A stretch of 64,000 bases of DNA from Mycolicibacterium insubricum. Its GTDB lineage: Bacteria > Actinomycetota > Actinomycetes > Mycobacteriales > Mycobacteriaceae. Location of the stretch: contig NZ_AP022618.1 in NCBI RefSeq assembly GCF_010731615.1, positions 2,232,001 to 2,296,000 on the forward strand. Direction: 5' to 3'. The first letter of the stretch is position 1, and every line of letters begins with the position of its first letter. The translations under genes and the position numbers were made by a program. Below are positions 19,663-59,772 of the stretch, piece by piece. The notes beneath the pieces are model-generated. The model ran no database searches, was not told the DNA's origin, and worked only from the letters and a program-made list of their open reading frames with translations.

Positions 19663-19711
19663 CCGCGCCGGGCCTCGTGCTCGCGGAATCTACACCGCTC
19701 GCCGAGCGCGG
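19663..19711. repeat. Structured dispersed repeat, copy A
   Basis: Copy between the convergent flavodoxin-like and SulP-carbonic anhydrase genes. The outer stem is CCGCGC (19663) with GCGCGG (19706), then GGC/GCC. The core hairpin is GCGG-AATCTACA-CCGC at 19683-19698. The core CTCGCGGAATCTACACCGC is shared with copies at 38840, 45798 and 58814. It may also serve as a terminator here. Confidence 0.75.
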
Positions 19712-19715
19712 CGGC

Positions 19716-21968
19716 TCAGCTGTGCACCGGGGACGGCAGCCGGTTCTCGGTGATGCCCAGCTCGTCGACCTGATAGACGTGGGCGGTGTTGAGATCGAAG
19801 AACACCCCGACCACCTCGATGCGCCCTTCGGCCACCGCCTCGGTAAGCACCGGATGCGCGATGAGGCGGCCGACCTGGATCGCCACATTGACCACCCCGA
19901 GCTGATCGGTTTCACCGAACCCACGCTCGGCCGCGGTGGCCCGGGCCGGGTGCCCGTCGTGATAGGCGGTGACGCTGTCATGGGCGTGCGCCAGCCAGTG
20001 GCTCACCGGGTTCGGCGCCTCGTCGTCGTTGTCGATCAGCGCGGTCATTGCGCCGCACGACGAATGTCCACACACCACAATCGAACTCACGCCCAACTTG
20101 CTGGCGGCGAAATCCAGGGCGGCATCCATCGACTCGTCCGTCCCGTCGTTGACCACCAGGTTTCCGACGTTGCGTACGGTGAACAGGTCACCCGGCCCGC
20201 TGGCGGTGATCACGTTCGGCAGGATCCGGGAATCGGCGCAGGTCAAAAACAGCGCGTCCGGATTCTGGTCCTCGGTCAGCTCGGCGATGTGCGGCGACAG
20301 CACCCCGCGGCCACGCCGGTTGTACTCGTCGATGCCGTCGAGGACCGAGCCGCCCTCGTCGCGGTAGCTGGCCAGCCAGGACCGCCACGGCACCAGACCC
20401 ACGGCACGGGTGCCGTAGTGCCGCTTGGGCGGCGCGGCATGCGCGTGGTGCAGCTTGGCGTGCGACGACTCGATGATCAAGACGGTGCCGCCGGTGGCCT
20501 CATGCGCCCGCTTCCAGTCGGCGATCGTCTCGGAGATCGCGTGATCGACGTAGTCGGCGTTGATGGTGATGGTGACCCGCGAACCATTCGGCAGCTCGCC
20601 GAGGATCCGGGTCAGCCGCGGCAGCGACAGGAAGCTCAGCGTGCCGTCGAGTTCGACGTGCCAGTCCTCGTTGTCGTCGGCGTCGTTGCCGAATTCCGCC
20701 GGCCGGGCCTCCATGTGCGCCCGCATCACCCGCCACAGCAGGATGACGATCGAGACGGCCAGGCCTATGGCGACGCCCTCGAGCAGGTTCAGGAACACCA
20801 CGCACACCACGGTGATCAGATAGACCGCGAGGTCGCCGGTACGACGGGCCATCCGGATCTGCGCCAGCTTCACCAGTTGCATGCCGATGACGATCAGCAG
20901 GCCGGCCAGCGCCGCCTTGGGCACCAACTCCACCAGGTCGGTCAGCATCGACGCGAACAGCAGAATCCAGACGCCGTGCAATACCGCCGACCACCGGGTG
21001 CGGGCACCGGCATTCACGTTGGTGGAGCTACGGACGATGACGCCGGTGACCGGCAGGCCGCTGAGCGCACCGGACACCACGTTCGCGCTGCCCTGACCGA
21101 TCATCTCGCGGTCGAAATTGCTGCGCGGACCGGTGTGCAGCTTGTCGACCCCGACCGCGGACAGCAGGGACTCGACGCTGGCGATCAGCGCGACGGTCAG
21201 CACCGCCAGCACCAGGGCACCGATGTGCGCGCTCCACGGCGAGCCGTCCCCGGCGGCCGCGGCCACGTCGGGCAGGCCCACCGAATCGAAGAAGTCCTTC
21301 CCCTGCAGATCGATCCGTTCGGCCGGCAGCTTCGCCACGACGGCCACCGCGGTCCCGACGACGATCGCCACCAGTGCTCCGGGGATCACCCGCAGCCGGG
21401 CGGGCAGCTTCGGCCACAGCAGCAGGATCGCGATGACGATGACGCCGATGATCACGTCGGGCAGATGGTGGTTGACGATGCCGTGCGGGAGCGCGGCGAG
21501 GTTCTCCCACGCCGTGCTGCGCGACGCTCCGCCCATCAGGACGTGGATCTGCTGCAGGGCGATGGTGATGCCGATTCCGGCCAGCATCGCGTGCACCACC
21601 ACCGGGGCGATGGCCAGTGCCGTCCGAGCGATCCGGGACAGTCCGAACAGGATCTGCAGCACACCGGCGGCCGCGGTGATGACACACGTCATCGCCCAGC
21701 CGAACTGGTCGATGAGGCCGGCCACCACCACGGTCAGGCCGGCGGCGGGACCGGTCACCTGCAGCGGGGAGCCGCCGATCAGGCCCGCGACGATGCCGCC
21801 GACGACAGCCGCGATGAGTCCGGCCATCAACGGCGCGCCGGACGCGTAGGCGATGCCCAGCGACAGCGGCAGGGCGACCAGGAACACCACCAGTGAGGCG
21901 GGCAGGTCGTGTTTGAGGTTCTGCAGAGCGGAGGATTTCGAGCCGTGCTCGAGGGAGGCAGTAGCCAT
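19716..21968 (-). CDS. SulP transporter fused to beta-carbonic anhydrase
   Basis: About 750 residues, like Rv3273 of M. tuberculosis. The N-terminal SulP/SLC26 part has 10 or more transmembrane helices (about 20-430) with the family motif VTGPAAGLTVVVA near 70. A short STAS-like stretch follows. The C-terminal 220 residues are a beta-carbonic anhydrase with zinc ligands Cys577, His635 and Cys638 and the Asp579/Arg581 pair in CADSR. The fusion suggests bicarbonate transport coupled to CO2 hydration. The ATG at 21968 is preferred because homologues begin near there; an in-frame GTG at 22052 is possible. Confidence 0.92.
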   Translation of the reverse strand: MATASLEHGSKSSALQNLKHDLPASLVVFLVALPLSLGIAYASGAPLMAGLIAAVVGGIVAGLIGGSPLQVTGPAAGLTVVVAGLIDQFGWAMTCVITAAAGVLQILFGLSRIARTALAIAPVVVHAMLAGIGITIALQQIHVLMGGASRSTAWENLAALPHGIVNHHLPDVIIGVIVIAILLLWPKLPARLRVIPGALVAIVVGTAVAVVAKLPAERIDLQGKDFFDSVGLPDVAAAAGDGSPWSAHIGALVLAVLTVALIASVESLLSAVGVDKLHTGPRSNFDREMIGQGSANVVSGALSGLPVTGVIVRSSTNVNAGARTRWSAVLHGVWILLFASMLTDLVELVPKAALAGLLIVIGMQLVKLAQIRMARRTGDLAVYLITVVCVVFLNLLEGVAIGLAVSIVILLWRVMRAHMEARPAEFGNDADDNEDWHVELDGTLSFLSLPRLTRILGELPNGSRVTITINADYVDHAISETIADWKRAHEATGGTVLIIESSHAKLHHAHAAPPKRHYGTRAVGLVPWRSWLASYRDEGGSVLDGIDEYNRRGRGVLSPHIAELTEDQNPDALFLTCADSRILPNVITASGPGDLFTVRNVGNLVVNDGTDESMDAALDFAASKLGVSSIVVCGHSSCGAMTALIDNDDEAPNPVSHWLAHAHDSVTAYHDGHPARATAAERGFGETDQLGVVNVAIQVGRLIAHPVLTEAVAEGRIEVVGVFFDLNTAHVYQVDELGITENRLPSPVHS

Positions 21969-22073
21969 CGTGGGGCCTATCGGTGTGAGTGGTGTCGACA
22001 AGAATGCGCCGGTACGGCCGCCGCCGGGGGAACCGTCAACTCGATTCACCACACGGAGGCGCCGCGGCGCCGG

Positions 22074-22442
22074 TCACTGTCGATCGATACCGATATCCGT
22101 CAGCCGGGAACGCCCCGGTGAATCGGGGCCACGGCTCAGCACCCGGCCGCGGACCGGACGGCCCACCACAATCGCCACGGCCAGCAGGGCGGCGAAGGTC
22201 AATGCGGCCGGCACATACGACGGCCCCGGCGGCACGTCGCGCCGCAACCGGTCACCGACGGCGCTGGCCTGGTTGACCGGGTGATGGTGGGTTTCCTCCG
22301 GAAGTTGCCAGGGAGTACTGGCGGCGGCGGCCGCGGCGGCGACCCCGGGCGCCGTCGTGCTGCCGGTGGCCGGCATGAAGAAACTCAAGGCCGCCAGCAA
22401 CAACAGCAGCGCAGCATTCGCGCTCGCCCGGCGGTTACCCAT
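22074..22442 (-). CDS. Small membrane protein of unknown function
   Basis: 122 residues. An N-terminal hydrophobic segment (NAALLLLLAALSFFMPATG, about 9-27), an Ala-rich linker, a polar His-containing region, and a second transmembrane helix (about 77-95) followed by a basic, Arg-rich tail. No family is recognised. A TAATCT box exactly 7 nt before the ATG supports it as a real, leaderless gene. It is upstream of, and on the same strand as, the SulP-carbonic anhydrase gene. Confidence 0.6.
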   Translation of the reverse strand: MGNRRASANAALLLLLAALSFFMPATGSTTAPGVAAAAAAASTPWQLPEETHHHPVNQASAVGDRLRRDVPPGPSYVPAALTFAALLAVAIVVGRPVRGRVLSRGPDSPGRSRLTDIGIDRQ

Positions 22443-22449
22443 GTGTTCG

Positions 22450-22455
22450 AGATTA
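22450..22455 (-). promoter_or_regulatory. -10 box of the small membrane protein at 22442 (leaderless)
   Basis: TAATCT on the minus strand, 7 nt before the ATG. Confidence 0.5.
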
Positions 22456-22528
22456 GCAGCGTGTCAAGGGTGGGTGCCATTACGCGAGGTAGGCTTCGCG
22501 CCAAGGGGATTGACGTGAGGAGGGTCAC

Positions 22529-22981
22529 ATGCCGGGTTTGGCCGAGTTGGCGCTGGGGACGGCACCGATCGCCGGCGGGGCTTTGCTGGGCCTGATCGTC
22601 GGCAACGGCCGCGGGCCCGATGTGCGGGCAGGGATCAAGGCCGATATGGACCTGTTGGACCGGCTGCCGGCCGAGGACACCGAACGTCGGGCGGCTCTGC
22701 AGGGGGCCATCGACGTCCGTATCGACGACATCGTGGCGACGGTCGCCCGCAACCGGGATATCCGGGCGCTGGCCACCTCCTACCGGGGCAATTGGCGCGA
22801 CATCGTGGTGTTCGTGTGCACCGTGCTGTTCACGATCGTCTGGTGGGAGGTCGACCACCACCGCGCGCACTGGCTGCCGATGTTCGTCGCCCTGATCGTG
22901 CTGTCGGTGATCTGCGCCGGGTACGCGCTGCGCGGGTTCGCTGAGGGCCTCGGCGAGTTCCGCCGCCGCCGGTGGAACTGA
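22529..22981 (+). CDS. Membrane protein of unknown function
   Basis: 150 residues behind a strong GAGGAGGGTCAC ribosome-binding site. A hydrophobic N-terminus (about 5-25), a soluble charged middle rich in Asp and Arg (30-85) that looks helical, and two adjacent transmembrane helices (about 92-108 and 117-135, the first with VWWEVDHH at its end). No family recognised. The MFS gene follows 70 bp downstream on the same strand. Confidence 0.72.
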   Translation: MPGLAELALGTAPIAGGALLGLIVGNGRGPDVRAGIKADMDLLDRLPAEDTERRAALQGAIDVRIDDIVATVARNRDIRALATSYRGNWRDIVVFVCTVLFTIVWWEVDHHRAHWLPMFVALIVLSVICAGYALRGFAEGLGEFRRRRWN

Positions 22982-23051
22982 GGCCGTCAGCGCCGCGATA
23001 GCGGGAAAATCGGTTGCCGGGGATGGTCGCGCCGGTGCGACGATAGCTTTC

Positions 23052-24275
23052 GTGGACTACCAGCGCGACCTCGAACGCGAGCTCGACGGTGCGGCCGAAC
23101 TGCGGCCCCGGGCGATGGCCGCCGGTGGCGCCCTGCTGATCGTCGCCGTGGTACTGACCGCGCTGAACCTGCGCCCGGCGATCACCAGCATCGGTCCGCT
23201 GCTCGGCGAGATGCGCTCCGAACTCGGGGCATCGGCGGTGTGGGCCGGCGTCCTGACCACGCTGCCGGGATTGTGCTTCGCCGCCGCCGGGCTGGCGGCA
23301 CCGTGGCTGTCGCGGAGGATCGGGCTGGGCTGGGCGATCGCAGCCGGCTTGACGATCCTGACCGCCGGTCTGATCGTCCGGGTACTCGACGGGCCGGCCG
23401 TCGTGATCGCCGGCACCCTGCTGGCCACCGGTGGCATCGCCCTGGTCAACGTGCTCATCCCGGTCGTCATCAAGGGCTCATTCCCCACCCGGATCGGGGT
23501 GATGACCGGCGTCTACACCGCCGCGTTGCAGGGCGGCGGAGCGCTGGGCTCGGCCCTCACCCCGCTGCTGGACCGGATACTCGGCGGCTGGGCCGGGGCG
23601 CTGGGCGCCTGGGCGGTGGTCTCCGGGCTGGCGCTCGCACTCTGGTTGCTCGGCGCCCGGCAGATCGAGGCCGCCCGGCCGTTGAGCACCCCCACCGCAC
23701 GGCGGGGCCCGTCGCTGCTGCGGTCCCGACTGGCCTGGACCATCACCCTGTTCTTCGGCACCCAGTCGTTCCTCGCGTATGTGGTGATGGGCTGGCTACC
23801 GGAGGTGTTCATCGACGGCGGCATCAGCCAGACCCGGGCGGGCCTGCTACTCGGGCTGATCTCGGTGCTGGCCGTCCCGATCAGCCTCGTCGTCGCCCCG
23901 CTGGCAGCCGGCCGGCCCAGCCAGAGCGGCTGGATCGTCGGGCTCGGCGTCGCCGGCGTCGCCGGGGTGATCGGGCTGCTGATCGACCCGGGTGCGGCGC
24001 CGGTCCTGTGGAGTGTGCTGGTCGGGCTGGGGATGAGCGTGTTCTCGCTGGCCCTGGCGGTGATCGCGCTGCGGGCGCGCGACGCGGACACCACCGCTGC
24101 GCTGTCCGGCATGGTGCAGGGCTTCGGCTATCTGCTGGCCGGGGTGGGCCCGCTGTTGTTCGGCGTGCTGCACGATGCGACGGGAGCCTGGACCGTGCCC
24201 TTTGCGATGCTGCTGGCGGTCTACGCCGTGCAGATGGTCACCGGCGCGCTGGCCGGGCGCCAGCGCTACGTGTAG
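23052..24275 (+). CDS. MFS transporter, CynX/NimT type
   Basis: 407 residues with 12 predicted transmembrane helices. The first helix ends in LNLRPAITSIGPLL (about 37-50), the signature of the cyanate/nitroimidazole exporter branch (CynX, NimT, YeaN). Substrates of this branch are small anions or 2-nitroimidazole; the one here cannot be told. GTG start. It converges on the CitE-like gene with 7 bp between stops, leaving no room for a separate terminator. Confidence 0.85.
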   Translation: MDYQRDLERELDGAAELRPRAMAAGGALLIVAVVLTALNLRPAITSIGPLLGEMRSELGASAVWAGVLTTLPGLCFAAAGLAAPWLSRRIGLGWAIAAGLTILTAGLIVRVLDGPAVVIAGTLLATGGIALVNVLIPVVIKGSFPTRIGVMTGVYTAALQGGGALGSALTPLLDRILGGWAGALGAWAVVSGLALALWLLGARQIEAARPLSTPTARRGPSLLRSRLAWTITLFFGTQSFLAYVVMGWLPEVFIDGGISQTRAGLLLGLISVLAVPISLVVAPLAAGRPSQSGWIVGLGVAGVAGVIGLLIDPGAAPVLWSVLVGLGMSVFSLALAVIALRARDADTTAALSGMVQGFGYLLAGVGPLLFGVLHDATGAWTVPFAMLLAVYAVQMVTGALAGRQRYV

Positions 24276-24282
24276 CCGCGGG

Positions 24283-25197
24283 TCAGTAGTGGTAGGTGTC
24301 CGACGGGGCCGGGCGGTGCCCGCGCTCGTCGTACCCGACGTCACCGGAGCCGATGCCGTAGGCGCGGGCCAGATCCAGGATCTTGGTCGCCCGGGCGATA
24401 CGCGGCAGGTCCGAGCCGTTGCGGATCTCGCCGCCGTCGCGGTTGAACTCGGCGAAAAACTCCTTGGCCCAGGCGATGTCGTCGGGCGACGGTGACAGGC
24501 CGGCGTTGACCGCGGAGCACTGGTCCGGCGACAGGCAGATCTTGCCGGTCATCCCGAACTCGGCGGACACCGCGGCCGCCTCGGACAGCTTCAGCGCGCT
24601 GGAGCCGACGGTCGGGCCGTCAATGGCGCTGGGCAGATGCGCGGCCCGCGCGGCGATGGTGAACCGGGACCGCGCGTACGCCAGCGTCGCCGGGTTGTCG
24701 CCGAAGCCGGTGTCGCGGCGGAAGTCGCCGATGCCGAACGCCAGCCGGAAAGTGCCCTTGGTGGCCGCGATCTCGGTGATGCGTTCCAGTCCGCGCGCGG
24801 TCTCCACCAGCGCGACGATCGGCACGCCGGGCAGCATCCGCGCGGTCTCGGTGACGTGGTCGACCGACTCCACCATCGCCAGCATCACGCCCCCGACCGA
24901 GGTGCCGGCCAGCAGTTCGCAGTCACCGGCCCACCACTGGGTGCCGAAGCCGTTGATCCGCACCCAGTCGTCGCGGCCGCCGGCCAGCCAGGAAGCGACA
25001 TGGTCGCGGGCGGCGGCCTTGTCCTTGGGGGCGACGGCGTCCTCGATGTCGAGCACCACGATGTCCGCGTGCGAGCGGGTGGCGGCCTCGAAACGGTCGG
25101 CGTGCGAGCCGTTGACCAGCAGCCAGCTGCGGGCCAGTACCGGGTCGAGCCGGGTGCCGCCGTCGGTGGAATCGGTGCTGAAGGGTTGCTCGTACAC
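24283..25197 (-). CDS. HpcH/HpaI-type CoA-ester lyase (CitE-like)
   Basis: About 304 residues in a TIM barrel of the citramalyl/malyl-CoA lyase superfamily. The metal-binding and catalytic stretches VVLDIEDAVAPKDKAAAR (about 45), ALVETARGLERI (about 140) and GIGDFRRDTGF (about 165) are present, and GKICLSPDQCSAVNAGL is the CoA end. Likely cleaves a malyl- or citramalyl-type CoA ester. The start is uncertain: the GTG at 25197 is used, but the frame stays open upstream (GYRPVGDDYG) and an in-frame ATG at 25305 would overlap the dienelactone hydrolase by 50 nt. Same operon as that gene. Confidence 0.8.
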   Translation of the reverse strand: MYEQPFSTDSTDGGTRLDPVLARSWLLVNGSHADRFEAATRSHADIVVLDIEDAVAPKDKAAARDHVASWLAGGRDDWVRINGFGTQWWAGDCELLAGTSVGGVMLAMVESVDHVTETARMLPGVPIVALVETARGLERITEIAATKGTFRLAFGIGDFRRDTGFGDNPATLAYARSRFTIAARAAHLPSAIDGPTVGSSALKLSEAAAVSAEFGMTGKICLSPDQCSAVNAGLSPSPDDIAWAKEFFAEFNRDGGEIRNGSDLPRIARATKILDLARAYGIGSGDVGYDERGHRPAPSDTYHY

Positions 25198-25255
25198 GCC
25201 ATAATCGTCGCCTACCGGCCGGTAGCCGAATGCCAGGGGGTCCGCGACGGGTGGG

Positions 25256-25993: not shown

Positions 25994-26011
25994 GCTTCGG
26001 TTATAGCGAAG

Positions 26012-26017
26012 TAAGCT
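26012..26017 (+). promoter_or_regulatory. -10 box of thyA (leaderless)
   Basis: TAAGCT, 7 nt, then the GTG at 26025. The opposing -10 of the dienelactone hydrolase (GTTATA as read on plus, 26000-26005) is only 6 bp away, so the two promoters probably compete. Confidence 0.55.
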
Positions 26018-26024
26018 GGCCTCC

Positions 26025-26843: not shown

Positions 26844-26853
26844 GGGCACGCCG

Positions 26854-27330: not shown

Positions 27331-27336
27331 CGTCCG

Positions 27337-28548: not shown

Positions 28549-28676
28549 CGCGTCGCCGCTTCGGTCGGCAGGCTAGTACCAACTGTTGACCGGTGGCGGC
28601 CGATAACTGGATAGTCCATGTGTCGGCGCTCGGCGGTCAACATTCGGTACGGGTTCGGCTGCCAGGCCGGCGGCGC

Positions 28677-34550: not shown

Positions 34551-37241
<2,691 letters not shown>

Positions 37242-37826: not shown

Positions 37827-38477
37827 GTGTCGGGACAACCACCCGCCGGAGAACCGGCGCGCCGCGTACCGGTGTTGAACCCGGCCAACGTGCTGACCGG
37901 CGTGCGGCTGGCCCTGGTTCCGGTGTTCGTGCTGGCGCTGTTCGCCGACGGCGGGCACGCCGTGACCAGCCGGATCGTCGCCTTCGCGATCTTCGCGATC
38001 GCCATCGTCACCGACCGAGTGGACGGCGAGATCGCCCGCAACTTCGACATGGAGACCGAGTTCGGCAAGCTGGCCGACCCGATCGCCGACAAAATGCTGA
38101 TCGGATCGGCGCTGATCGGCCTGTCGATCCTGGGCGACCTGCCCTGGTGGGTGACCGCGGTTATCCTGGCCCGGGAGATCGGCGTCACGCTGCTGCGGTT
38201 CGCGGTACTGCACCGCGGGGTCATCCCGGCCAGCCGGGGCGGAAAGCTCAAGACCCTCGTTCAGTCGGTCGCCATCGGTTTGTTCGTGCTGCCGCTGCAC
38301 GACTGGCCGCACCCCTGGACGACGGTCGCCTGGGTGGTCATGTGGATCGCGATCGTGCTGACGGTGGTCACCGGGATCGACTATCTGGTGTCGGCGCTGC
38401 GCAGCCCGCCGACCGATCCGGAGACTGGCGAGGCGGTGCCGGGAACCAATCCGAGTGCCGTCGACGTTGAAGGTTGA
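37827..38477 (+). CDS. pgsA3: CDP-diacylglycerol-glycerol-3-phosphate 3-phosphatidyltransferase (PgsA3)
   Basis: 216 residues with five or six transmembrane helices. Integral membrane CDP-alcohol phosphotransferase of phosphatidylglycerol/cardiolipin synthesis. The DG-x2-AR-x8-G-x3-D-x3-D signature is seen as [11 protein letters not shown] through [10 protein letters not shown] (about 61-88). GTG start after a leaderless -10 box. The 3' end carries a SigE-like promoter for clgR. Confidence 0.93.
38442..38469 (+). promoter_or_regulatory. SigE-like (ECF) promoter of clgR
   Basis: GGAACC, exactly 18 nt, then GTTG, within the last codons of pgsA3. This is the mycobacterial SigE consensus, and clgR is a known SigE target in M. 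tuberculosis. Transcription would start about 45 nt before clgR. Confidence 0.65.
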
Positions 38478-38523
38478 ACACCGCGGTCCGACGGACGCTG
38501 CGTTATACGAAGGAGAATCCCGC

Positions 38524-38844
38524 GTGACGGCACTTTTGCGTGAGGTTATCGGCGACGAGCTGCGCCGCACCCGCACCGCGCAGGGACGCACCCTGCGCGA
38601 GGTCTCCGACTCCGCGCGGGTCAGCCTGGGCTATCTGTCCGAGGTAGAGCGCGGCCGAAAGGAGGCCTCCAGCGAACTGCTCGGCGCGATCTGCCTGGCG
38701 CTGGACGTGCCGCTGTCGCGGGTGTTGATCGACGCGGGACTGCGGATGAGCCGCACCGAGGCGCCGGTGGCCCCGGTCACCGGGCATATCGATCCGGCCA
38801 CCAAGGTGGTGATCCCGCCCGTCGTGTCGATGGCCGTCGCCTGA
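38524..38844 (+). CDS. clgR: ClgR transcriptional activator
   Basis: 106 residues. Cro/C1-type helix-turn-helix near residues 10-65 ([40 protein letters not shown] spans it in full). Activates Clp protease and psp genes under envelope stress. The C-terminal tail ends in VSMAVA, a hydrophobic end that in relatives makes ClgR a ClpP substrate. The GTG start has an AAGGAG ribosome-binding site. Upstream is a SigE-like promoter; downstream is a tandem repeat before pspA. Confidence 0.92.
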
Positions 38845-38951
38845 CCCGACGAGCGGTGTAGTTTCCGCGAGGAGGTGTCAGGCGTGGTGGTCGAGCCTGA
38901 CCCGACGAGCGGTGTAGTTTCCGCGAGGAGGTGTCAGGCGTGGTGGTCGAG
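38840..38951. repeat. 56-bp tandem duplication containing structured repeat, copies B1 and B2
   Basis: Two identical 56-bp units start at 38840 and 38896, followed by the first 5 nt of a third. Unit 1 begins within the clgR stop codon context. Each holds a 43-nt element with outer stem CCTGAC/GTCAGG and inner hairpin GCGG-TGTAGTTT-CCGC. The element lies in the opposite orientation to those at 19663, 45798 and 58814. Confidence 0.9.
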
Positions 38952-43624: not shown

Positions 43625-45769
43625 ATGGCGCAACAGGCACCGGATCGCGCAAAGGCCCTCGAATTGGCGATGGCCCAGATCGAGAAGAACTTCGGCAAGG
43701 GCTCGGTGATGCGCCTCGGCGAGGAAGCCCACCAGCCGATCGCCGTCATCCCGACCGGATCGATCGCCCTCGATGTGGCACTGGGCATCGGTGGCCTGCC
43801 GCGCGGCCGCGTCGTCGAGATCTACGGCCCGGAATCCTCGGGTAAGACCACCGTCGCCCTGCACGCGGTGGCCAACGCCCAGGCCGCCGGCGGCATCGCG
43901 GCGTTCATCGACGCCGAGCACGCGCTGGACCCGGAGTACGCCCGGGCGCTCGGTGTGGACACCGATGCCCTGCTGGTTTCCCAGCCGGACACCGGTGAGC
44001 AGGCCCTGGAGATCGCGGACATGCTGATCCGCTCCGGCGCCCTGGACATCCTGGTCATCGACTCGGTGGCCGCGCTGGTGCCCCGCGCCGAGATCGAGGG
44101 CGAGATGGGCGACAGTCACGTCGGTCTGCAGGCCCGCCTGATGAGCCAGGCGCTGCGCAAAATGACCGGCGCCCTGAGCAATTCGGGCACCACCGCGATC
44201 TTCATCAACCAGCTCCGAGAAAAAATCGGGGTGATGTTCGGATGCTTTGCCTATGGCACCCGGGTGCAGCTGTCGGACGGGACCTCCGAGAAGATCGGCA
44301 AGATCGTCAACCAGAAGATGGACGTCGAGGTGATGTCCTACGACCCGGTCACCGACCAGATCGTGCCCCGGCGGGTCGTCAACTGGTTCAACAACGGACC
44401 GGCCGAACAGTTCCTGCAGTTCACCGTCGAGAAGTCCGGCGGCAACGGCCGTTCGCAGTTCGCGGCCACCCCGAACCACCTCATCCGCACTCCGGCCGGC
44501 TGGACCGAGGCCGGTGACATCATCGCCGGGGACCGAGTGCTGGCCGCCGAGCCGCATCTGCTCAGCGACCAGCAGTTCCAGGTGATCCTGGGTTCGCTGA
44601 TGGGTGACGGCAATCTGTCGCCGAACCTGCGCGGCCGCAACGGCGTTCGGTTCCGGATGGGCCACGGTGCCCGCCAGGCCGACTACCTGGACTGGAAGAC
44701 CGGTCTGCTGGGCAATATCAAGCATTCAGTCCGGGAGAACGACAAGGGCGCCCGGTTCGCCGACTTCACCCCGCTGCCGGAACTCGGCGAATTGCAGCGT
44801 GCGGTGTATCTGGGTGACGGCAAGAAGTTCTTGTCCGAGGACTACCTGAAGGCGCTGACCCCGCTCGCGCTGGCCGTCTGGTACATGGACGACGGGTCCT
44901 TCACCGTGCGGTCCAAGGGACTGCAGCAGCGCACCGCGGGCGGTAGCGGCCGGATCGAGATCTGTGTCGAGGCGATGAGCGAAGGTTCACGGGAACGGTT
45001 GCGGGATTACCTGTGCGACACCCACGGACTCGACGTCCGGCTGCGCTCGGCCGGTGCCGCGGGCAAGGCGGTGCTGGTGTTCTCCACCGCGGCGACGGCC
45101 AAGTTCCAGGAGCTGGTGGCACCGTATATGGCTCCGTCCATGGAGTACAAGCTGCTGCCGCGTTTCCGTGGGCTCGGCACCGTCGAGCCGCAGTTCGTGC
45201 CGGCCTCGCAGCGGCTGGTGCCGGCGCGGGTGCTCGATATCCATGTCAAGCCGCAGACTCGTTCGATGAACCGGTTCGACATCGAGGTGGAGGGCAATCA
45301 CAACTACTTCGTGGACGGCGTCATGGTGCACAACTCGCCCGAAACGACCACTGGCGGAAAGGCGTTGAAGTTCTACGCCTCGGTCCGGATGGACGTCCGT
45401 CGCATCGAGACCCTCAAGGACGGCACTGACGCGGTCGGTAACCGCACCCGGGTCAAGATCGTCAAGAACAAGGTCAGCCCGCCGTTCAAGCAGGCCGAGT
45501 TCGACATCCTGTACGGCAAGGGCATCTCCAAGGAGGGCTCGCTGATCGACATGGGTGTTGACCAGGGCTTCATCCGCAAGTCGGGATCCTGGTACACCTA
45601 CGACGGCGAGCAGCTGGGCCAGGGCAAGGAGAACGCCCGCGGCTACCTGCTGACCAACCCCGAGATCGCCGACGAGATCGAGAAGAAGATCAAGGAGAAG
45701 CTCGGTATCGGGGCGGTGCTGGGCGACGAGCTGACCGATGACCCGGCACCGGCGCCCGTCGACTTCTGA
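43625..45769 (+). CDS. recA: Recombinase RecA containing an intein
   Basis: A 714-codon frame. Residues 1-206 and 571-714 together make a normal 350-residue RecA; between them is a 364-residue intein. Walker A is GPESSGKTT near 70, and the host continues as [14 protein letters not shown] after the intein. RecA drives strand exchange and LexA cleavage. The intein sits after KIGVMFG, the site used in M. leprae and several other species (RecA-b), and not the upstream site used in M. tuberculosis. Protein splicing is needed before RecA can act. recX overlaps the 3' end by 32 nt. Confidence 0.97.
44243..45334 (+). other. RecA-b intein with LAGLIDADG homing endonuclease
   Basis: 364 residues from Cys207 of the precursor ([13 protein letters not shown]) to the terminal HN dipeptide (GVMVHN), with Ser of SPETTT as the +1 residue. 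Block B is ATPNHLIRT. The two dodecapeptide motifs are [11 protein letters not shown] and [11 protein letters not shown], both with their acidic residues, so the homing endonuclease may still be active. The sequence closely resembles the M. leprae RecA intein. Confidence 0.95.
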
Positions 45770-46391
45770 GTCGCCAGAAGTCGGTGAGCCCGGCGAGGTC
45801 GGCGGCGGGCCTCGTGCTCGCGGAACTACACCGCTCGCCGAACCCGCCGGTGCAGTCGGCGGCGGGCCTCGTGCTCGCGGAACTACACCGCTCGCCGAAC
45901 CCGCCGGGCGGGTGGCGCAGGCGCAGTCCTACAGTCTGCGCCTGCTCACGGCCCGGGCGCGCACTCGCGGCGAGCTCACCGAACGGCTGACCCAGCGCGG
46001 CTATACCGAGGACGTGATCGACGTCGTGCTGGGCCGGCTCGCCAAGGCCGGTCTGCTCGACGACGCCGAGTTCGCGCGGGAATGGGTGCGGTCGCGACAA
46101 CTCAATGCCGGCAAGGGAAAACGGGCACTGGCCGTCGAACTGCGTAACAAGGGCGTCGACGCCGAGATCATCGATGCCACCCTGGCCGACGTCGACACCG
46201 ACTCGGAACGGCGGCGGGCCGAGGAACTGGTGGCCACCCGGCTGCAGCGGGAATCCCTGGCCGACGGCGACGACGTCAAGGTCACCCGCCGCCTGGTCGG
46301 CATGCTGGCCCGCCGCGGCTACAGCCAGGGCATGGCGTTCGATGTCGTCAAAGTTGCGTTGATGGGGGAGCGGGAACGAAGGAAGGTTTAA
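45738..46391 (+). CDS. recX: Regulatory protein RecX with repeat insertion
   Basis: 217 residues. Inhibits RecA filament growth and ATPase. Three RecX three-helix units cover about 62-215 ([18 protein letters not shown], then [14 protein letters not shown], then [15 protein letters not shown]). The N-terminus [11 protein letters not shown] matches the M. tuberculosis type, but residues 21-58 are two 19-residue copies of [23 protein letters not shown] sequence, absent in Rv2736c. They are encoded by the structured repeat. The ATG overlaps recA by 32 nt. Confidence 0.9.
45798..45911. repeat. Structured dispersed repeat, copies C1 and C2, inside recX
   Basis: Two 57-bp units at 45798 and 45855. 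Each has outer stem CGGCGGG/CCCGCCG (45803 with 45843; 45860 with 45900) and inner hairpin GCGG-AACTACA-CCGC. The 57-bp period preserves the recX frame. Confidence 0.9.
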
Positions 46392-51961: not shown

Positions 51962-51974
51962 GCTCCCTCCCGCA

Positions 51975-52781: not shown

Positions 52782-52857
52782 GGGCAGTAGACCTTACCGA
52801 GCGAATTCAGGGTTTTCTTGCCTAAGTCACGATTTCTCGGCCCGGCGGGCGGCTCCG

Positions 52858-52863
52858 TACGAT
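52858..52863 (+). promoter_or_regulatory. -10 box of miaB (leaderless)
   Basis: TACGAT, 6 nt, then the GTG at 52870. Two nearby ATGs are out of frame. Confidence 0.5.
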
Positions 52864-52869
52864 GAATGG

Positions 52870-54396
52870 GTGACTTCCTCGGTAGCGGCGCGTACCTACC
52901 AGGTCCGCACCTACGGCTGTCAGATGAACGTGCACGACTCCGAGAGGCTGGCGGGCCTGCTCGAGGACGCCGGCTACCGGCGCGCCGCCGAGGGAGCCGA
53001 CGCCGACGTGGTGGTGTTCAACACCTGCGCGGTCCGGGAGAACGCCGACAACAAGCTCTACGGCAACCTCAGCCACCTGGCCCCGCGCAAGCAGGCCGAC
53101 CCGAACATGCAGATCGCCGTCGGCGGCTGCCTGGCGCAGAAGGACCGCGCCGCGGTGCTGCGCCGCGCGCCGTGGGTCGACGTCGTCTTCGGCACCCACA
53201 ACATCGGTTCGCTGCCGGTGTTGCTGGACCGGGCCCGGCACAACCGCGTCGCGCAGGTGGAGATCCTCGATGCGCTCGCGGAGTTCCCGTCGGACCTGCC
53301 CGCGGCCCGGGAGTCCAGCTACGCCGCCTGGGTGTCGATCTCCGTCGGCTGCAACAACACCTGCACCTTTTGCATCGTTCCGTCGTTGCGCGGCAAGGAA
53401 ATCGATCGCCGCCCCGGCGACGTCCTGGCCGAGGTGCAGGCGCTCGTCGACCAGGGTGTACTGGAGGTGACGCTGCTCGGGCAGAACGTCAACGCCTATG
53501 GCGTGTCCTTCGCCGACCCCGACACCCCGCGCGACCGCGGCGCGTTCGCGTCTTTGCTGCGCGCCTGCGGTGCCATCGAGGGCCTGGAGCGGGTCCGGTT
53601 CACCTCGCCGCATCCGGCGGAGTTCACCGACGACGTCATCGAGGCGATGGCGGCGACCCCCAACGTCTGCCCGCAGCTGCACATGCCGCTGCAATCGGGC
53701 TCCGACCGGATCCTGAAGGCCATGCGCCGGTCGTACCGGGCCAAGAAGTTCCTGGGCATCATCGACCGGGTCCGCGATCTGATGCCGCACGCCGCGATCA
53801 CCACCGACATCATCGTCGGCTTCCCCGGCGAGACCGAGGAGGACTTCCAGGACACCCTCGACGTCGTCGAGAAGGCCCGCTTCGCCTCCGCGTTCACCTT
53901 CCAGTACTCGCCGCGGCCCGGGACCCCGGCCGCCGACCTCGATGACCAGGTGCCCCCGGAGACCGTGGCGGACCGCTACCGCCGGCTCATCGACTTGCAG
54001 GAACGGATCTCGCTGGAGGAGAACCAGGCCCAGATCGGGCGCCGGGTCCAGGTGCTGGTCGCCGCCGGTGAGGGCCGCAAGGACACCGCCACCGCCCGAC
54101 TCAGCGGCCGCGCCCGCGACGGCCGGCTGGTGCACTTCGCGCCCGGCGCGCTGGCGGAGGCCATCCGGCCAGGCGACATCGTGTCCACCGTCGTCACCGC
54201 GGCCGCCCCGCACCACCTGATCGCCGACGGCGGGGTGGACGAGCACCGGCGCACCCGGGCCGGCGACGCGACCCGCACCGACGACGGGCAACGGGTCGGC
54301 ACCGCCGTCGGGCTCGGGATACCGACCCTGGGCGCCCCGGCCCCGGAGCCGCAGGGGCAGACTGGGGGCGAATGCGAAAGTGGGTGCTCATGGTGA
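52870..54396 (+). CDS. miaB: tRNA-2-methylthio-N6-dimethylallyladenosine synthase MiaB
   Basis: 508 residues. Adds the methylthio group to i6A37, the product of MiaA encoded 6 kb downstream. Three N-terminal cysteines for one cluster (YGCQMN, NTCAVR, GGCLAQ), the radical-SAM motif GCNNTCTFC near 155-165, and a TRAM domain near 400-465. The C-terminal tail of about 40 residues is low complexity. Leaderless GTG start. The 3' end overlaps the next gene. Confidence 0.96.
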
Positions 54397-54953
54397 CCGA
54401 TCAGGGTTTTGACGCGTACCGAAGTGAGATCGAAGCCGCCGAGCGGCGGGTGTCGCGGGAAATCGACCCGGGCGCGCGCGCCGTGGTGGTCGCCGCCCTG
54501 GTACTGGTGCTGATCGTCTCGCTGCTGCTGCCGCAGACCGGCGACGCGCGCGGCGTCGACGTACTGGTGAACTCGGCGGCCGCGCACGCCGAGATGGTCG
54601 CCCTGCCGCACCGGGTGTTCTGCTGGCTGACGCTGGTCTTCGGCATCGGCATATCGGCGCTGGCCCTGACCACCCGGCGCTGGGGCGTGGCGTGGGTGGC
54701 GCTGGCCGGCTCGGCGGTGGCCTGCGCGGCCGGGATGCTGGCGGTGTGGAGCCGACAGACGGTGAACGTCGGCCGCCACTTGCCCGAAGTGCTACCCGGC
54801 CCCGGGATCGGTCTGATCATCGGCTGGATCGCGATCATCGCGCTGACCTTCCACTGGGCGCGGGTGATCTGGGCGCGCACCGCCGCGCAGTACGCCGCCG
54901 AGGAGCTGCGCCAGCAACGGCCCGAGCCGCCGACGGCCGAGCAGCTCGGCTGA
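54390..54953 (+). CDS. Membrane protein (Rv2732c-like)
   Basis: 187 residues with four transmembrane helices (about 33-48, 73-92, 98-115 and 135-155). Short cytoplasmic ends, the C-terminus polar and rich in Gln and Pro. It overlaps the end of miaB (stop 54396) by 7 nt with the ATG, or by 4 nt if the next codon, a GTG, is used; an ATG at 54372 is a further option. Function unknown. Conserved after miaB in M. tuberculosis. Confidence 0.8.
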
Positions 54954-54997
54954 CGCCTTGGCTGCCCGAGATCGGCAGCGAATCGGTCCCGGCCCTC

Positions 54998-55003
54998 TAA
55001 ACT
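54998..55003 (+). promoter_or_regulatory. -10 box of the gene at 55012
   Basis: TAAACT, 8 nt, then the ATG at 55012; a near-leaderless arrangement. Confidence 0.4.
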
Positions 55004-55011
55004 TTCCGGCT

Positions 55012-55545
55012 ATGAGCAGCCCTGAGCCGAGTGGCAACGAACGGGTACAGGCCGTCCTGCACAAGGTCGTCATCGTGTCCGTCGTACTGGTGTTGCTGGT
55101 GGCGAGCTATTTCCTGCTCGCGTCGCTGGTACCGCGCTGGTGGGCCCAGCGAATCGCCGACCAGGTCCAAGGCTCGTTCCGCACCGGCATCACCCTCGGG
55201 CTGAGCACCGGGTTCGTGTGCACGTTCATCCCGATCCTGCTGGTGCTCGCCGCCATCCTGGTCTGGAACAGGTGGAAGCACATCCCGACGATCCTCTGTG
55301 CCGCGGGCGCCGTCATCGCGGCGCTGCCGAACCTGCTGACCCTCACCGTGGTGCTGGGCCGGAGTGACGCCGCACACGCCGGGGACCGCGTCCTCGACGT
55401 TCTGGCCCCGGCATACCGCGGTGCCACTGCGTGGGGGGCGATCATCGGGGTGCTGGCCTCGGCGGTGGTGATCTACTTCATCCTCAACTACCGGCGGCGC
55501 GGCCGCAGACTGCACGAGGCCGCCCGCCCCGCCGACGGCGAGTAG
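55012..55545 (+). CDS. Membrane protein of unknown function
   Basis: 177 residues with four transmembrane helices (about 18-38, 58-80, 86-105 and 138-160) and a basic cytoplasmic C-terminus (RRRGRRLHEAARP). No family is recognised. The start at MSSPEPSGNE is supported by a TAAACT box just upstream; the frame opens earlier but without support. It converges on the DUF349 gene with only 2 bp between the stops. Confidence 0.75.
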   Translation: MSSPEPSGNERVQAVLHKVVIVSVVLVLLVASYFLLASLVPRWWAQRIADQVQGSFRTGITLGLSTGFVCTFIPILLVLAAILVWNRWKHIPTILCAAGAVIAALPNLLTLTVVLGRSDAAHAGDRVLDVLAPAYRGATAWGAIIGVLASAVVIYFILNYRRRGRRLHEAARPADGE

Positions 55546-55547
55546 CC

Positions 55548-56882
55548 TCAGCGCTTCTTGGCGACCGCCTGGGTCGCGGTCTGCGCCCAGTCCCGCCACT
55601 GCGCGGCGCTGGCCCGGGCCTCGCCGGCCTCCTTGGCGCGCCCGGCGGCCTCGGCCTTGGTCGCTTGCTTCTCGAACTGCTCGGCGCGGGCGATGAACTG
55701 CTCGGCGCGCGCCTGGGCCTGGGGATCCGGCTGATCCGCGTCCCCCGCCTCGCGGACCTTCTTCTCGACGGCGCGGAGCCGGCGCTCCAGCTCGGCGCCG
55801 CGCTCCCGCGGCGTCATGCCGATGGCGTCCCACTTGTCGGTGATCGCCCGCAGCGCCGCGCGGGCGGCGTTGCGGTTGCCGACGTCGATCCGCTCGGCCT
55901 CGGCCAGCAACGCCTCCTTGGCGTCGGCGTTCGCGCTGAACTCGGCGTCCCGCTCGGCGCTGTTGGCGTTGCGGGCGGCGAAGAAGGCGTCTTGCGCGGC
56001 CTTGAACCGGCGCCACAATTTGTCGTCGACGTCCTTGACGGTGCGGCCCGCGGCCTTCCACTCGGTCAGCAGATTCCGGAATGCGGCGCTGGTGGGACCC
56101 CAGTCGGTCGACGACGTCAGCGCCTCGGCCCGCTCACACAGCTCCTCCTTGGCGCGGCGCACGCCGGCGCGACCGCGATCCAGCTCCGCGAAGTGGGCGC
56201 CACGACGACGGTTGAAGGACTCCCGCGCCGCGTAGAACCGCTTCCACAGTTCCTCCTCGGTCTTGCGGTCCAGCCCGCCGATCGTCTTCCACTCCTCGGC
56301 GATGGTGCGGAACCGGTCGCCGGCGGCCTTCCAGTGCGTCGAGTTGGCGGCCAGGTCCTCGGCCTCGGCGGCCAGGGTTTCCTTGCGGGCGGTGTTTGCG
56401 GAGCGCTCTTCGTCGCGCTGGGCGCGGGTCGCCTCGGCGACCTCCATGGCGTGCTGGGACAGGGCGGCCAGCCGGGCGGCCAGTGCGTCGACGTCGCCGA
56501 GCACATGGGCCTCGGGCAGGGTCTTGGCCAGGCTCGCGGCGGCATTGCCGATCTTGCGCGGCTCACCGGTGCCGGAGGCCAGCCGTCGCTCCAGCAGCGC
56601 CACCTCGGTGGCCAGGTCGTCGTAGCGGCGCCCGAAATGCTCGTAGGCGGCGTCCGCGTCGCCGGCCTGCCAGGACGCGATGACCCGCTCGCCGGCTGCG
56701 GTGATCAGCCACACCGTGCCGTCGGGGTCGACCCGGCCGAACCGGTGCGGATCGCTGGACGGGACCGCGGGCACCACGGCGGCCACCGGATGGGCGCCGG
56801 GCCGGGGGCCGGGACGCGGACCGGGCAGTGGTCCGGGGCGGGGAGTCACGGGTTGCGGGTTTTCCTGCGCCGAATCCGTCAT
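55548..56882 (-). CDS. DUF349 protein (Rv2731-like)
   Basis: 444 residues. A Pro-rich N-terminus (1-40), then three or four copies of the DUF349 three-helix unit, each marked by a W-K-x-hydrophobic pattern ([28 protein letters not shown] near 200, [29 protein letters not shown] near 280, DKWDAIG near 355). Ala/Glu/Arg-rich with coiled-coil propensity to the end. The role is unknown. ATG at 56882 is chosen as the first Met of the conserved region; the frame opens 39 nt earlier. Confidence 0.87.
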
Positions 56883-57050
56883 CTGCAACCTCGTACTTCC
56901 CTGGGTGCGGACTCTCCGCACACTGCCGCGCGACGCGGCGCCGGTCGGATCTGCCGAACAATCCGATAGGGCCTATTCAAGCAGGCCGCCGCTGCGCCGT
57001 CACGATCTTGGGTGGCCACCACCGGTGCAGTTGCGCGCGGGGTCATCGAG

Positions 57051-57965
57051 ATGGTTGCGTGGCACACCGTGTCCAACTCCGGTATCGCCGCGGCCCTGCT
57101 GGCCCTGGGCGCCGCCCTGTTCATCGGGATCGGCAACGTCCTGCACCAGCGGGCCGCGCACGCGGTCACCACCGAACCGGTCGGCAACTTCGAGCTGTTC
57201 CTTCGGCTGTTGCGGGACTGGCCGTGGTGGCGGGGCAGCCTGATCGCCGCCATCGGATTCGCCTGCCAGGCCGCCGCTCTCGGTCTGGGATCGGTGCTGC
57301 TGGTCCAGGCGCTGATGGTCACCTCGCTGCTGTTCGCGCTGGTACTCAACGCCCGCTGGACCCACCGCAGGGTCGCGCACAGCGAATGGGTGTGGGCGGC
57401 GCTGCTGGCGGTGTCGGTGACCGTCATCGTCATCGTCGGAAAACCCACGCCCGGTGCCTCCCGCGGCACCCTGCACATCTGGCTGCTGGTCGCCGCGGTG
57501 ATCGTCCCGCTGATGATCGCCTGCCTGATCGGCGCCCGGATCTGGTCCGGGCCGGTCTCGGCGGTGCTGATCGCCCTGGTCTCCGGCACCTGGTGGGGCA
57601 TTTTCTCAGTGCTCACCAAGGGCATCGTCGAGCTGGTCGGCGACGGGCCGATGGCGGTACTGCGCTCTCCGGAGCTGTACGGGTTCGCGCTGGCCGCGCT
57701 GGCCGGCACGGCCTGGCAGCAGGCCGCCTTCCGGGCCGGGGCGCTGACCGCCTCGCTGCCGACGCTGACCGTCACCGAACCGATGGTCGGCTCGATCCTG
57801 GGCGTGGTGGTCCTCGGCGAAACCCTGCACCCGGGCCGCGCCGGGTGGGCGGTACTGGTGGTCACGGTGGCGGTGATGGTGGTGGCCACCGCCAGGCTGG
57901 CCCGGGTGGAAGCCGACTCCGTCGAGCACGCCGACGATCCCGTCCCGGCCGGCGGCGCCGGATAG
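57051..57965 (+). CDS. DMT-superfamily (EamA-like) membrane protein
   Basis: 304 residues with ten short transmembrane helices in two homologous halves, the usual fold of drug/metabolite transporters. The first helix begins SNSGIAAALLALGAALFIGIGNVLHQRAA, and the second half ends with TVTEPMVGSILGVVVLGETLHPG, the conserved EamA stretch. Substrate unknown. The ATG at 57051 is chosen from length; a GTG at 57012 gives 13 more residues. Related in position and size to Rv2729c. Confidence 0.8.
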   Translation: MVAWHTVSNSGIAAALLALGAALFIGIGNVLHQRAAHAVTTEPVGNFELFLRLLRDWPWWRGSLIAAIGFACQAAALGLGSVLLVQALMVTSLLFALVLNARWTHRRVAHSEWVWAALLAVSVTVIVIVGKPTPGASRGTLHIWLLVAAVIVPLMIACLIGARIWSGPVSAVLIALVSGTWWGIFSVLTKGIVELVGDGPMAVLRSPELYGFALAALAGTAWQQAAFRAGALTASLPTLTVTEPMVGSILGVVVLGETLHPGRAGWAVLVVTVAVMVVATARLARVEADSVEHADDPVPAGGAG

Positions 57966-57968
57966 CCT
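57963..57968 (+). promoter_or_regulatory. -10 box of the gene at 57977
   Basis: TAGCCT, 8 nt, then the GTG at 57977. Confidence 0.4.
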
Positions 57969-57976
57969 GATCAGTC

Positions 57977-58792
57977 GTGCTGACCGCCATCGCGATCGTT
58001 CCCTCACCGCCGGTCCTGGTCCCCGAGCTGGCCGGCGGCGGCGCCGCCGAGTTCGCCGGTCTGCGCGCCGCGGTCGCCGAGGCCGCGGCAGCTCTCCCGC
58101 CGCGCTGGCTGGCGGTCGGCGTCGCGGGCGACGCACCGGCGGTGTTCGGGACCCGGGCGTCGGGCACCTTCGCCGGATACGGGGCCGACGTCCCCGTCGC
58201 ACTGTCCGGCCACCCCGATCCCGCGGTCCGGGCGCTGCCGCTGTGTGCGCTGATCACCGGCTGGATCCGGGGACAGAGCGCGCCGCAGGCCGTCGCCGAG
58301 GTGCGCTGCTGGCCCGCCGACACCCCCGATGCCGCCGCGGTGGCCGCGGGCGCGGCGCTGCGCGCCGAACTCGACGCCACCGGTGAACCGATCGGCGTAC
58401 TGGTGGTCGCCGACGGGCTCACCACGCTGACCCCGTCGGCCCCCGGCGGCCACGATCCCGCGTCCGTGCCGCTCCAGCAGGCCCTCGACGACGCCCTGGC
58501 CACCGGCGACACCGCCCGCCTGGCCGTCCCGCCACCGGCGGCGGGACGGACGGCCTACGCGGTGCTGTCCGGACTGGCCGGACCCGGCCCGCACGAGGTG
58601 CACCAGCTCTACCGCGACGCCCCGCTGGGCGTCGGCTATTTCGTGGGGGTTTGGAGGTTTAGCGAGGCTCGGCGGAGCGGGGACGGAGAAGGCCGAGTCA
58701 GCGGAGCTTGCGGAGCTGACGCTGGCCGGATCCGACCGTTGGTTGCGAGCCGAGTCGAAGCTGGAACCGACCATCAGGGCTGGAGGCTGTGA
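57977..58792 (+). CDS. LigB-like (class III extradiol dioxygenase fold) protein (Rv2728c-like) with unusual tail
   Basis: 271 residues. Residues 1-227 resemble the LigB/MEMO fold family found next to miaA in mycobacteria ([16 protein letters not shown] at the start, [10 protein letters not shown] near 140). The metal ligands of true dioxygenases are not clear, so activity is doubtful. The fold ends near YFVGVWRF; the last 45 residues (from [12 protein letters not shown]) are polar, Arg- and Gly-rich, and look added. The stop overlaps the miaA GTG by 4 nt (GTGA). Confidence 0.75.
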
Positions 58793-59772
58793 GTACCCGG
58801 CCAGATGTAGCGCCCGGCCTCGCCGTCGCGGAACTGCACTGCTCCTCGAACCGGCCGGTCGCGGTCATCGGCCCCACCGGGACCGGGAAATCCGCCCTCG
58901 CCCTCGATCTGGCCGAACTCCTCGCCGCCGAGGGGATCGGTGCCGAGGTGGTCAACGCCGACGCCATGCAGCTCTACCGCGGGATGGACATCGGCACCGC
59001 CAAGCTGGCGCCAGACCAGCGCCGCGGCATCGTCCATCACCAGCTCGACGTGCTGGAGGTCACCGAGACCGCCACCGTCGCCAACTACCAGAGTGCCGCC
59101 GCTGCCGACGTCGAGGCCATCGCCGCCCGCGGTGCGGTGCCGATCATCGTCGGCGGCTCCATGCTCTATCTGCAGTCGTTGCTGGACGACTGGGCCTTTC
59201 CGGCGACCGACCCGGCGGTGCGGGCCCGCTACGAGGCCCGGCTGGCCGAGATCGGCGTGGCGGCGCTGCAGCGCGAGCTGGCCGCCGTCGACCCCGAAGC
59301 CGCCGCGAGCATCCAGGCCGGCGACGGGCGCCGGATCGTGCGGGCCCTGGAGGTCGTCGAGCTGACCGGGGCGCCGTTCGCCGCGTCGGCGCCGGTCATC
59401 GGCGCACGACCCCGGTGGAACACCCTGATCATCGGCCTGGACACCGACACCGCCACCCTCGACGAGCGACTGGCGGCCCGCACCGACGCGATGTTCGCCG
59501 ACGGCCTGGTCGCCGAGGTCCGCTCACTGCTGCAGGTCGGCCTGCGTGACGGGGTGACCGCCGCCCGGGCGCTGGGCTACGCGCAGGTGATCGCCGACCT
59601 CGACGCCGGCGGCGACGGTTCCGGTGCCGCCGAACCGACGTTCATCGGGACCCGCCGCTATGTCCGACGGCAGCGGTCCTGGTTCCGCCGTGACCCCCGC
59701 GTCCTGTGGCTGGGCTCCGGCGACCCGGACAACCCGGCCACGGTGCTGCGACGGTGGCACGACGTATCCTGA
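58789..59772 (+). CDS. miaA: tRNA dimethylallyltransferase MiaA with N-terminal repeat insertion
   Basis: 327 residues. Prenylates A37 of tRNAs reading U-starting codons; MiaB then methylthiolates it. Walker A GPTGTGKS with Lys34, then [29 protein letters not shown], and [13 protein letters not shown] at the end. In M. tuberculosis the Walker A follows the start almost at once (MRPLAIIGPTG); here about 20 extra residues ([18 protein letters not shown]) precede it and are encoded by the structured repeat. GTG start overlapping the previous stop, with GGAGG upstream. Confidence 0.94.
58814..58858. repeat. Structured dispersed repeat, copy D, inside miaA
   Basis: Outer stem CCGGCC (58814) with GGCCGG (58853); inner hairpin GCGG-AACTGCA-CTGC (58828-58842, one G-U pair). 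About 37 of 47 positions match the recX copies. Read here in a different frame from recX. Confidence 0.75.
59765..59770 (+). promoter_or_regulatory. -10 box of dapF (leaderless)
   Basis: TATCCT, 6 nt, then the GTG at 59777, overlapping the last codons of miaA. Confidence 0.5.

Follow-up and report, generated by a model that had tools for sequence, protein, structure and literature searches.

Among the short repeats described from bacterial chromosomes, the Rickettsia palindromic elements (RPE) are palindromic, dispersed and inserted in frame in many unrelated genes (PMC10969869, PMC2229807). They are the closest known kind to the subject of this report, a hairpin element of about 57 nt per unit with six copies in a 64,000-nt stretch of the chromosome of Mycolicibacterium insubricum (assembly GCF_010731615.1, contig NZ_AP022618.1, positions 2,232,001 to 2,296,000 of the forward strand), the whole of which is called the window below. 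A first-pass annotation, made from the letters of this stretch, had described the copies as a dispersed hairpin, possibly a mobile, RPE-like one, and had not recognised it among the named mycobacterial repeats. No named repeat was matched in Rfam or in the open-licence literature searched, and the reading as a dispersed mobile element of the RPE type is now supported by copy number, by covariation and by sites that are empty in relatives.

Like RPE, the M. insubricum element is palindromic, dispersed and inserted in frame in unrelated genes; unlike them it is mycobacterial, has a unit of 54–57 nt instead of 105–150, owes its 3′ arm to the target wherever the insertion is clearest, and forms tandem arrays. 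In its behaviour the element is like an RPE; we claim no membership, the comparison being one of descriptions, not of sequences.

The GTAG/CGTC-tagged repetitive extragenic palindromes (REP) and REPINs are short imperfect palindromes with tens of copies, some of them intragenic (PMC3733652). All this holds for the new element too, which differs in being tagless, in arms that vary from locus to locus and in that most of its high-copy carriers lack a Y1 transposase. YPAL/RU-2 of Yersinia are inverted repeats with target duplications of 3–26 bp, targets at or near dyad symmetry, and empty sites (PMC2229807). Inverted repeats, a target duplication of variable length and empty sites are shared, whereas those elements measure 168 bp and belong to another organism, and here the duplicated target is one arm of the hairpin. 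By its target site duplication the element also resembles the miniature inverted-repeat transposable elements; we know of no other element in which a hairpin arm is taken from the landing site, though no search aimed at this was made.

Mycobacterial interspersed repetitive units (MIRU) have 46–101 bp and occur at 41 loci (PMC3914561). With these and with other mycobacterial variable-number tandem repeats the element shares its host group, its scattered distribution over 43 loci, 11 of which hold tandem arrays, and a comparable unit length, a likeness that concerns size and layout. MIRUs sit at overlapping stop and start codons and, to our knowledge, have not been described as hairpins. Small dispersed repeats are very small, tandem and possibly mobile, and differ in measuring about 20 bp (PMC2884548). 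The element of the window has in common with them its smallness, its arrays and its possible mobility. The small dispersed repeats are of cyanobacterial origin.

Insertion into sites that are empty in relatives

The repeat is probably a small mobile element, non-autonomous and built of units of about 57 nt, that inserts at sites resembling its own 3′ end and duplicates them. At several chromosomal sites whose counterpart in a relative is empty it has inserted, singly or in tandem, and at the clearest of them host sequence is duplicated, with one copy on the element's left side and the second serving as the 3′ arm of the hairpin. The suspicion of mobility in the first-pass annotation is thereby borne out by uninserted relatives (G199 for several loci, G393 for miaA, and the relatives with an uninterrupted rnhA).

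The clearest insertion lies outside the M. insubricum genome (G000), in rnhA of the relative G093. The 57-nt insert is without counterpart in G016 and G022 (95% identity in a comparison of 411 bases). Its last 14 nt repeat perfectly the host sequence that precedes it, and it lengthens the protein by 19 residues, RNase H being recognised by Pfam with and without it. In the window itself, the miaA product of G393 begins MSTRPIAVIG and that of M. insubricum MSTRP, followed by 18 residues and VAVIG, a difference of 54 nt.

Of the 43 loci into which the copies of the chromosome fall, 18 can be paired with G199 (1.83 of its 3.99 Mb compared), and 6 of these pairs are clean in that one gap holds the element. 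The gap is 57 nt at 498164, 3816772 (with a compensated 3-nt shift nearby), 3966903 and 4031981, 54 nt at 314865 (plus a further 3-nt gap), and 114 nt, or 2 × 57 for two units, at 3099341 in CobN. The remaining 12 pairs are not clean: in several the gap is split (e.g., 2277801 in recX, net 84; 2956044, net 81), at 2055883 the two genomes have different arrays, at 2482877 both keep a short relic, at 1544978 half an element is involved, and others align poorly. At 2055883 the ortholog in G199 (L223) carries an array of another subtype in the opposite orientation, apparently a repeated target. No copy was found in any of the recA-recX loci of the 29 relatives examined.

The six copies in the window

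All six copies (A, two each of B and C, and D) are present where the first-pass annotation had placed them, two loci being intergenic (A and B) and two lying inside genes (C in the recX frame, D in miaA). The exact core patterns match 3 + 3 times in the window, against about 0.01 expected from shuffles, and the covariance model R1 matches all six copies with E from 2e-13 to 7e-6; since R1 was built from 27 copies of the same genome, 4 of the 6 included, this checks the register and is not independent proof. A weak seventh match of R1 lies at 37098–37154 (E 0.25). The features are as follows (positions within the window).

19664..19715, plus strand: copy A, intergenic between two convergent genes, loop with one extra base; found by R1 and by the core pattern; DNA fold z −2.1
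38455..38844, plus strand: gene of a helix-turn-helix (HTH) regulator (Pfam PF01381), whose stop-codon region is the target of B
38836..38886, minus strand: copy B1, overlapping the stop codon of the upstream HTH gene; right arm GGGTCAGGC also in the uninserted G199; found by R1
38892..38942, minus strand: copy B2, in tandem with B1, period 56; found by R1
45738..46391, plus strand: recX (Pfam PF21982, PF02631), two units in the N-terminal tail before RecX_HTH1
45801..45851, plus strand: copy C1, in frame within recX; found by R1
45858..45908, plus strand: copy C2, in tandem with C1, period 57, in frame within recX; found by R1
58789..59772, plus strand: miaA (Pfam PF01715), one unit after MSTRP
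58795..58802, plus strand: left target copy at D, ACCCGGCC, single in G393
58809..58859, plus strand: copy D, in frame near the N-terminus of miaA, weak stem, empty site in G393; found by R1
58850..58856, plus strand: right target copy at D, ACCGGCC, an imperfect repeat of the left one and part of the 3′ arm of the hairpin

The neighbours of copy A are a gene with a weak match to FMN reductase and a sulfate-permease/carbonic-anhydrase gene. Copy B lies between the HTH gene, which we take to be clgR-like, and a gene of the pspA family.

Landing sites and the origin of the hairpin arms

The empty sites resemble the right end of the element, GAACCCGGCG, with a mean of 7.57 of 10 positions in seven hand-cut windows (rnhA excluded) against 6.28 in 20000 random windows of G199 (p 0.00015). 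At the occupied loci the left flank agrees with the locus's own 3′ arm at 7.35 of 10 positions and with the 3′ arms of other loci at 6.55; for the complement of the 5′ arm the corresponding figures are 5.65 and 5.23 of 7. In all, 0 of 10000 permutations did as well in either comparison, and four control tests on the opposite strand and the right flank were null. This likeness, which the first-pass annotation had missed, amounts to at least 8 of the 10 bases of the right arm at 17 of the 43 loci, and conservation of the left flank begins about 20 nt before the arm. When the two arms differ and one of them fits the left flank, the fitting one is the 3′ arm in 10 cases and the 5′ arm in 3 (231 arm cells at 33 loci that pass a permissive threshold, with symmetric choice of offset).

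Three loci tell where the 3′ arm comes from. In CobN the uninserted G199 has GCCGAACTCGCCG, which is the 3′ end of the element there, including a T that is matched by an A of the 5′ arm, and the inserted locus holds a perfect direct repeat of 14 nt. At B, between the clgR-like gene and pspA, the stop-codon region of the HTH gene itself makes up the right arm GGGTCAGGC. In rnhA the 3′ arm, TCCACCG, is host sequence found in the empty site, whose match to the 5′ arm, read as its complement TCCGACG, fails at two positions. At all three loci the 3′ arm came from the target. For rnhA it is clear that the 5′ arm was brought by the element; the converse idea of target-templated 5′ arms is unsupported there, the match being 5 of 7. 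The target site duplication is not constant in length: it is perfect over 14 nt at rnhA and CobN and imperfect at miaA, and the direct repeat at 2055883 is about 19 nt long.

Structure, folding and covariation of the stem

Two core patterns, allowing up to two mismatches, occur at 4 + 29 places of the 4.58-Mb chromosome and their reversed forms at 1 + 0. Of these 33 loci, 27 were aligned, five further members of tandem arrays and an odd copy at 821499 being omitted. The unit of about 57 nt consists of a spacer of about 10 nt, the 5′ arm, a conserved core of internal loop and apical stem, and a 3′ end close to GAACCCGGCG. The outer arms are CGCCGGG/CCCGGCG and variants of it, the step TCG/CGA follows, the inner stem is GCGG/CCGC or GCAG/CTGC, and the apical parts vary by subtype (GCGGAACTACACCGC, GCGGAAAAACGCCGC, TCGTTCCTC and others). 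The core stem of the window copies (GCGG/CCGC, with CTGC in D) and their locus-specific complementary arms are thus as the first-pass annotation had described them, while its length of 43–49 nt has to be replaced by the 54–57 nt of the inserted unit, which is spacer plus hairpin.

In the alignment 92.3% of the cells pair under the proposed structure, and partners slid against each other pair in 29–47%. Double changes are found at 9 of the 14 pairs, with 30 cells altered on both sides and 4 on one side only; on four of five measures 0 of 500 shuffles were as good, and on the fifth 7 of 500. Covariation of the outer stem, which the first-pass annotation had noted in the six copies, is therefore strong. 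As single-stranded DNA the window copies fold better than shuffled sequences in the case of A (z −2.1), B (z −3.7 and −2.9) and C (z −3.75 for both copies). The fold of D is no better (z +0.86; 161 of 200 shuffles at least as stable), which is why its stem is called weak.

The first-pass annotation had concluded from the preserved pairing that the fold is what is maintained. This conclusion is not safe, because at rnhA, CobN and clgR-pspA the 3′ arm pre-exists in the uninserted relative, so that part of the arm variation derives from the landing site. Part of the compensating stems is a record of target matching and not of selection on the fold. Among the paired arm positions there are 277 Watson-Crick pairs, 5 G-U pairs and 19 mismatches, and the scarcity of G-U pairs fits a process at the level of DNA better than selection on RNA.

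Copy number and distribution

On the M. insubricum chromosome the best 150 candidates of R1 gave at least 60 matches with E ≤ 1 and at least 53 with E ≤ 0.01, not merely the handful that would have spoken against a dispersed repeat. For the analysis of loci 57 matches were kept (450246, 1057255 and 1896880 being dropped from the 60) and grouped into the 43 loci, 26 on the plus and 17 on the minus strand. There was no pattern of replication strand by chromosome half among them, with the origin assumed at position 1. Exact matches to the right half of the element in the same genome number 21 on the plus and 4 on the minus strand. The periods of the tandem arrays vary (54–57, also 62, 63, 68 and 78).

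Since only a limited number of candidates per genome was scored with R1, weak copies may have been missed in the following searches. At least 18 of 396 genomes of the genus (M. insubricum included) have a match with E ≤ 0.003 among the best 15 candidates per genome. With E ≤ 0.02 there are 36 copies in G418, 31 each in G199 and G393, 20 in G304, 6 in G080 and 3 in G012. In a search of the family 2 of 201 genomes matched, both of the same genus, and R1 found no element in 24 genomes taken from the order's other families. Among named records it is carried by Mycolicibacter sp. MYC017, MYC098 and MYC123, M. algericus, M. icosiumassiliensis and three more from mycobacteria. The plasmids, phages and viral contigs searched gave no element; one Streptomyces plasmid matched over 53% of the query.

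An apparent carrier outside the genus, the ‘Acidobacteria’ metagenome-assembled genome UR.bin238 (L102, L105; record JAKIXW01), is probably mislabelled: at two of its five loci, those for which a counterpart was available, it is 100% identical over 3051 nt to G393, a genome placed in the genus of the window. A match in Minicystis rosea, in which the arms do not match by eye, is read as chance. The broad pattern CTTCCTCGCN{0,30}GCTCGTCGA hit 82 of 392 genomes of the genus, and was left unused as most of the listed matches in non-carriers were by eye without the apical sequences.

One gene carries an insertion at an identical position in G286, G304 and G012, the number of units being 1, 4 and 1 (L084, L093, L172), which would reflect either vertical inheritance with a changed number of units or a repeated target.

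Two other features of the window may be recorded. At 44242–45333 recA contains an intein with a LAGLIDADG domain (Pfam PF03161); G199 and G304 are without it at that site, and G393, G110 and G022 align through it. At the gathering score Rfam had no family for the hairpin, and its sole match in the window was Actino-pnp RNA, a known cis-regulatory family, at 7621–7687.

How the element may move

We propose that the 5′ arm of a single-stranded copy pairs with complementary host sequence and so leads the element to its site, where it would be copied in, either by a recombinase acting in trans or by template switching while DNA is replicated or repaired. Slippage between the direct repeats could subsequently give rise to the tandem arrays, and the element probably persists as a selfish passenger because inserts that keep the frame are tolerated. 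An extension of this idea holds that the landing site completes the hairpin: the element would bring no arm but the 5′ one, a short guide to complementary host sequence, and the duplicated target would become the 3′ arm. We regard this extension as, on balance, unlikely.

Several observations weigh against insertion at sites like the 3′ end with duplication of the target. At 26 of the 43 loci the left flank agrees with the locus's own 3′ arm at 5–7 of 10 positions, which is about the level of unrelated pairs (mean 6.55), and in 34 of the 231 arm cells the arms agree with each other and not with the left flank, so that the 3′ arm is not always derived from the target or the left copy has decayed. 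The empty sites at 4031981 and 3816772 resemble the arms poorly. Only 18 of the 43 loci could be paired with G199, only 6 of them cleanly, and the count of 10 to 3 in favour of the 3′ arm is small. Neither the duplicated length nor the tandem period is constant, unlike what a classical transposase leaves behind; no enzyme was identified, and the M. insubricum genome showed no larger parent element with this right end; and the choice of the site by pairing of the 5′ arm is something we infer.

One of the two copying routes named above can also be taken as a full explanation, in which no dedicated enzyme takes part and template switching or microhomology-directed copying between GAACCCGG-like sites inserts the unit that lies between the direct repeats of a donor. 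We consider it possible, though doubtful. Targets that resemble the end of the element, a total of 57 nt with a direct repeat of variable length, arrays of the same period, and the failure to find a Y1 gene or a parent element all agree with it, yet a distribution in which few genomes have copies by the tens and most lack the element would be easier to understand with a factor acting in trans, and the search for an enzyme covered the Y1 family only. This search, made with PF01797 in 26 genomes, was positive in 7. As to a larger parent element with the same right end, none was seen in the M. insubricum genome with one right-half pattern: its 25 exact matches fall into listed copies in 24 cases and outside them in one (2361374).

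The same search bears on movement as a REP element by a REP-associated tyrosine (Y1) transposase (RAYT), which the first-pass annotation had considered and which we now hold to be highly improbable. A small dispersed palindrome, tandem, intergenic as well as intragenic, recalls the GTAG/CGTC REPs (PMC3733652), and G304 and G012 each possess one PF01797 gene. However, PF01797 was not found in G000, G199, G418, G393 (81% complete) and G080, five of the six genomes with at least 6 copies, and the tags of REPs are missing from the foot of the hairpin, where CGTC occurs on the left at 3 and GTAG at 2 of the 43 loci, and on the right at 0 and 1. G002, a relative with 4.0 Mb, shows nine PF01797 matches yet one weak match of the element.

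That the hairpin is an immobile functional RNA or protein-binding site, selected at each place, would account for the strong covariation and for the folding of A to C, but appears very unlikely, since empty sites exist, the 29 relatives examined have no copy at recA-recX, unrelated genes contain copies on either strand and in various frames, and arms made up almost wholly of Watson-Crick pairs are not what selection on RNA would produce. Scarcely credible is a selfish module kept for the peptide it encodes: a 13-residue peptide of the sense frame does recur in several proteins, but the antisense frame and a second sense frame, APGLVLGEQHSSPNP, are used as well, and intergenic copies exist. Insertion of a small mobile element with duplication of the target remains the reading that we favour.

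Effects on genes

Either strand of an insert can be the one that is read, and three or more frames are in use, the antisense frame also yielding a 13-residue peptide; lengths of 54 or 57 nt keep the reading frames open. From 20 loci a long open reading frame spanning the element was chosen for Pfam, the other 23 loci being excluded, and 19 of the 20 have a family; because the frames were read from stop to stop, inserts near an end may fall outside the translated part (e.g., L016, L009, L013, L032, L014). The families with inserts include RecX, MiaA, NAD kinase, PEP carboxylase, CobN, 4-alpha-glucanotransferase, peptidase S58, GT87 and an Rv2179c-like RNase. Judged by coordinates, seven inserts fall within the best Pfam match (NAD kinase, PEP carboxylase, S58, GT87, glucanotransferase, an acyltransferase and the Rv2179c-like protein), the remaining ones in tails or ahead of the domain. 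All five tandem arrays in genes supported by Pfam (925629, 2277801, 2952419, 3039355, 3099341) have a period of 57, and the five arrays without a spanning frame have 54, 56, 57, 62 and 63/78, as expected if only lengths that keep the frame survive in genes.

Significance

The element adds peptides of 18–19 residues to core proteins such as RecX, MiaA, NAD kinase, PEP carboxylase, CobN and RNase HI. The empty sites reveal its mode of insertion, that is the length of the unit, the target and the origin of one arm, and they carry the warning that covariation of a stem in a dispersed repeat need not imply selection on the fold. If the 5′ arm were indeed a guide, this covariation would preserve, like a fossil, the past pairing of guides and targets; mismatched positions of the hairpin, once corrected, would then make new guides, and an element without genes and of less than 60 nt could retarget itself. 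Loci with a variable number of units could serve for typing, and the movement of RPE-like elements becomes experimentally testable.

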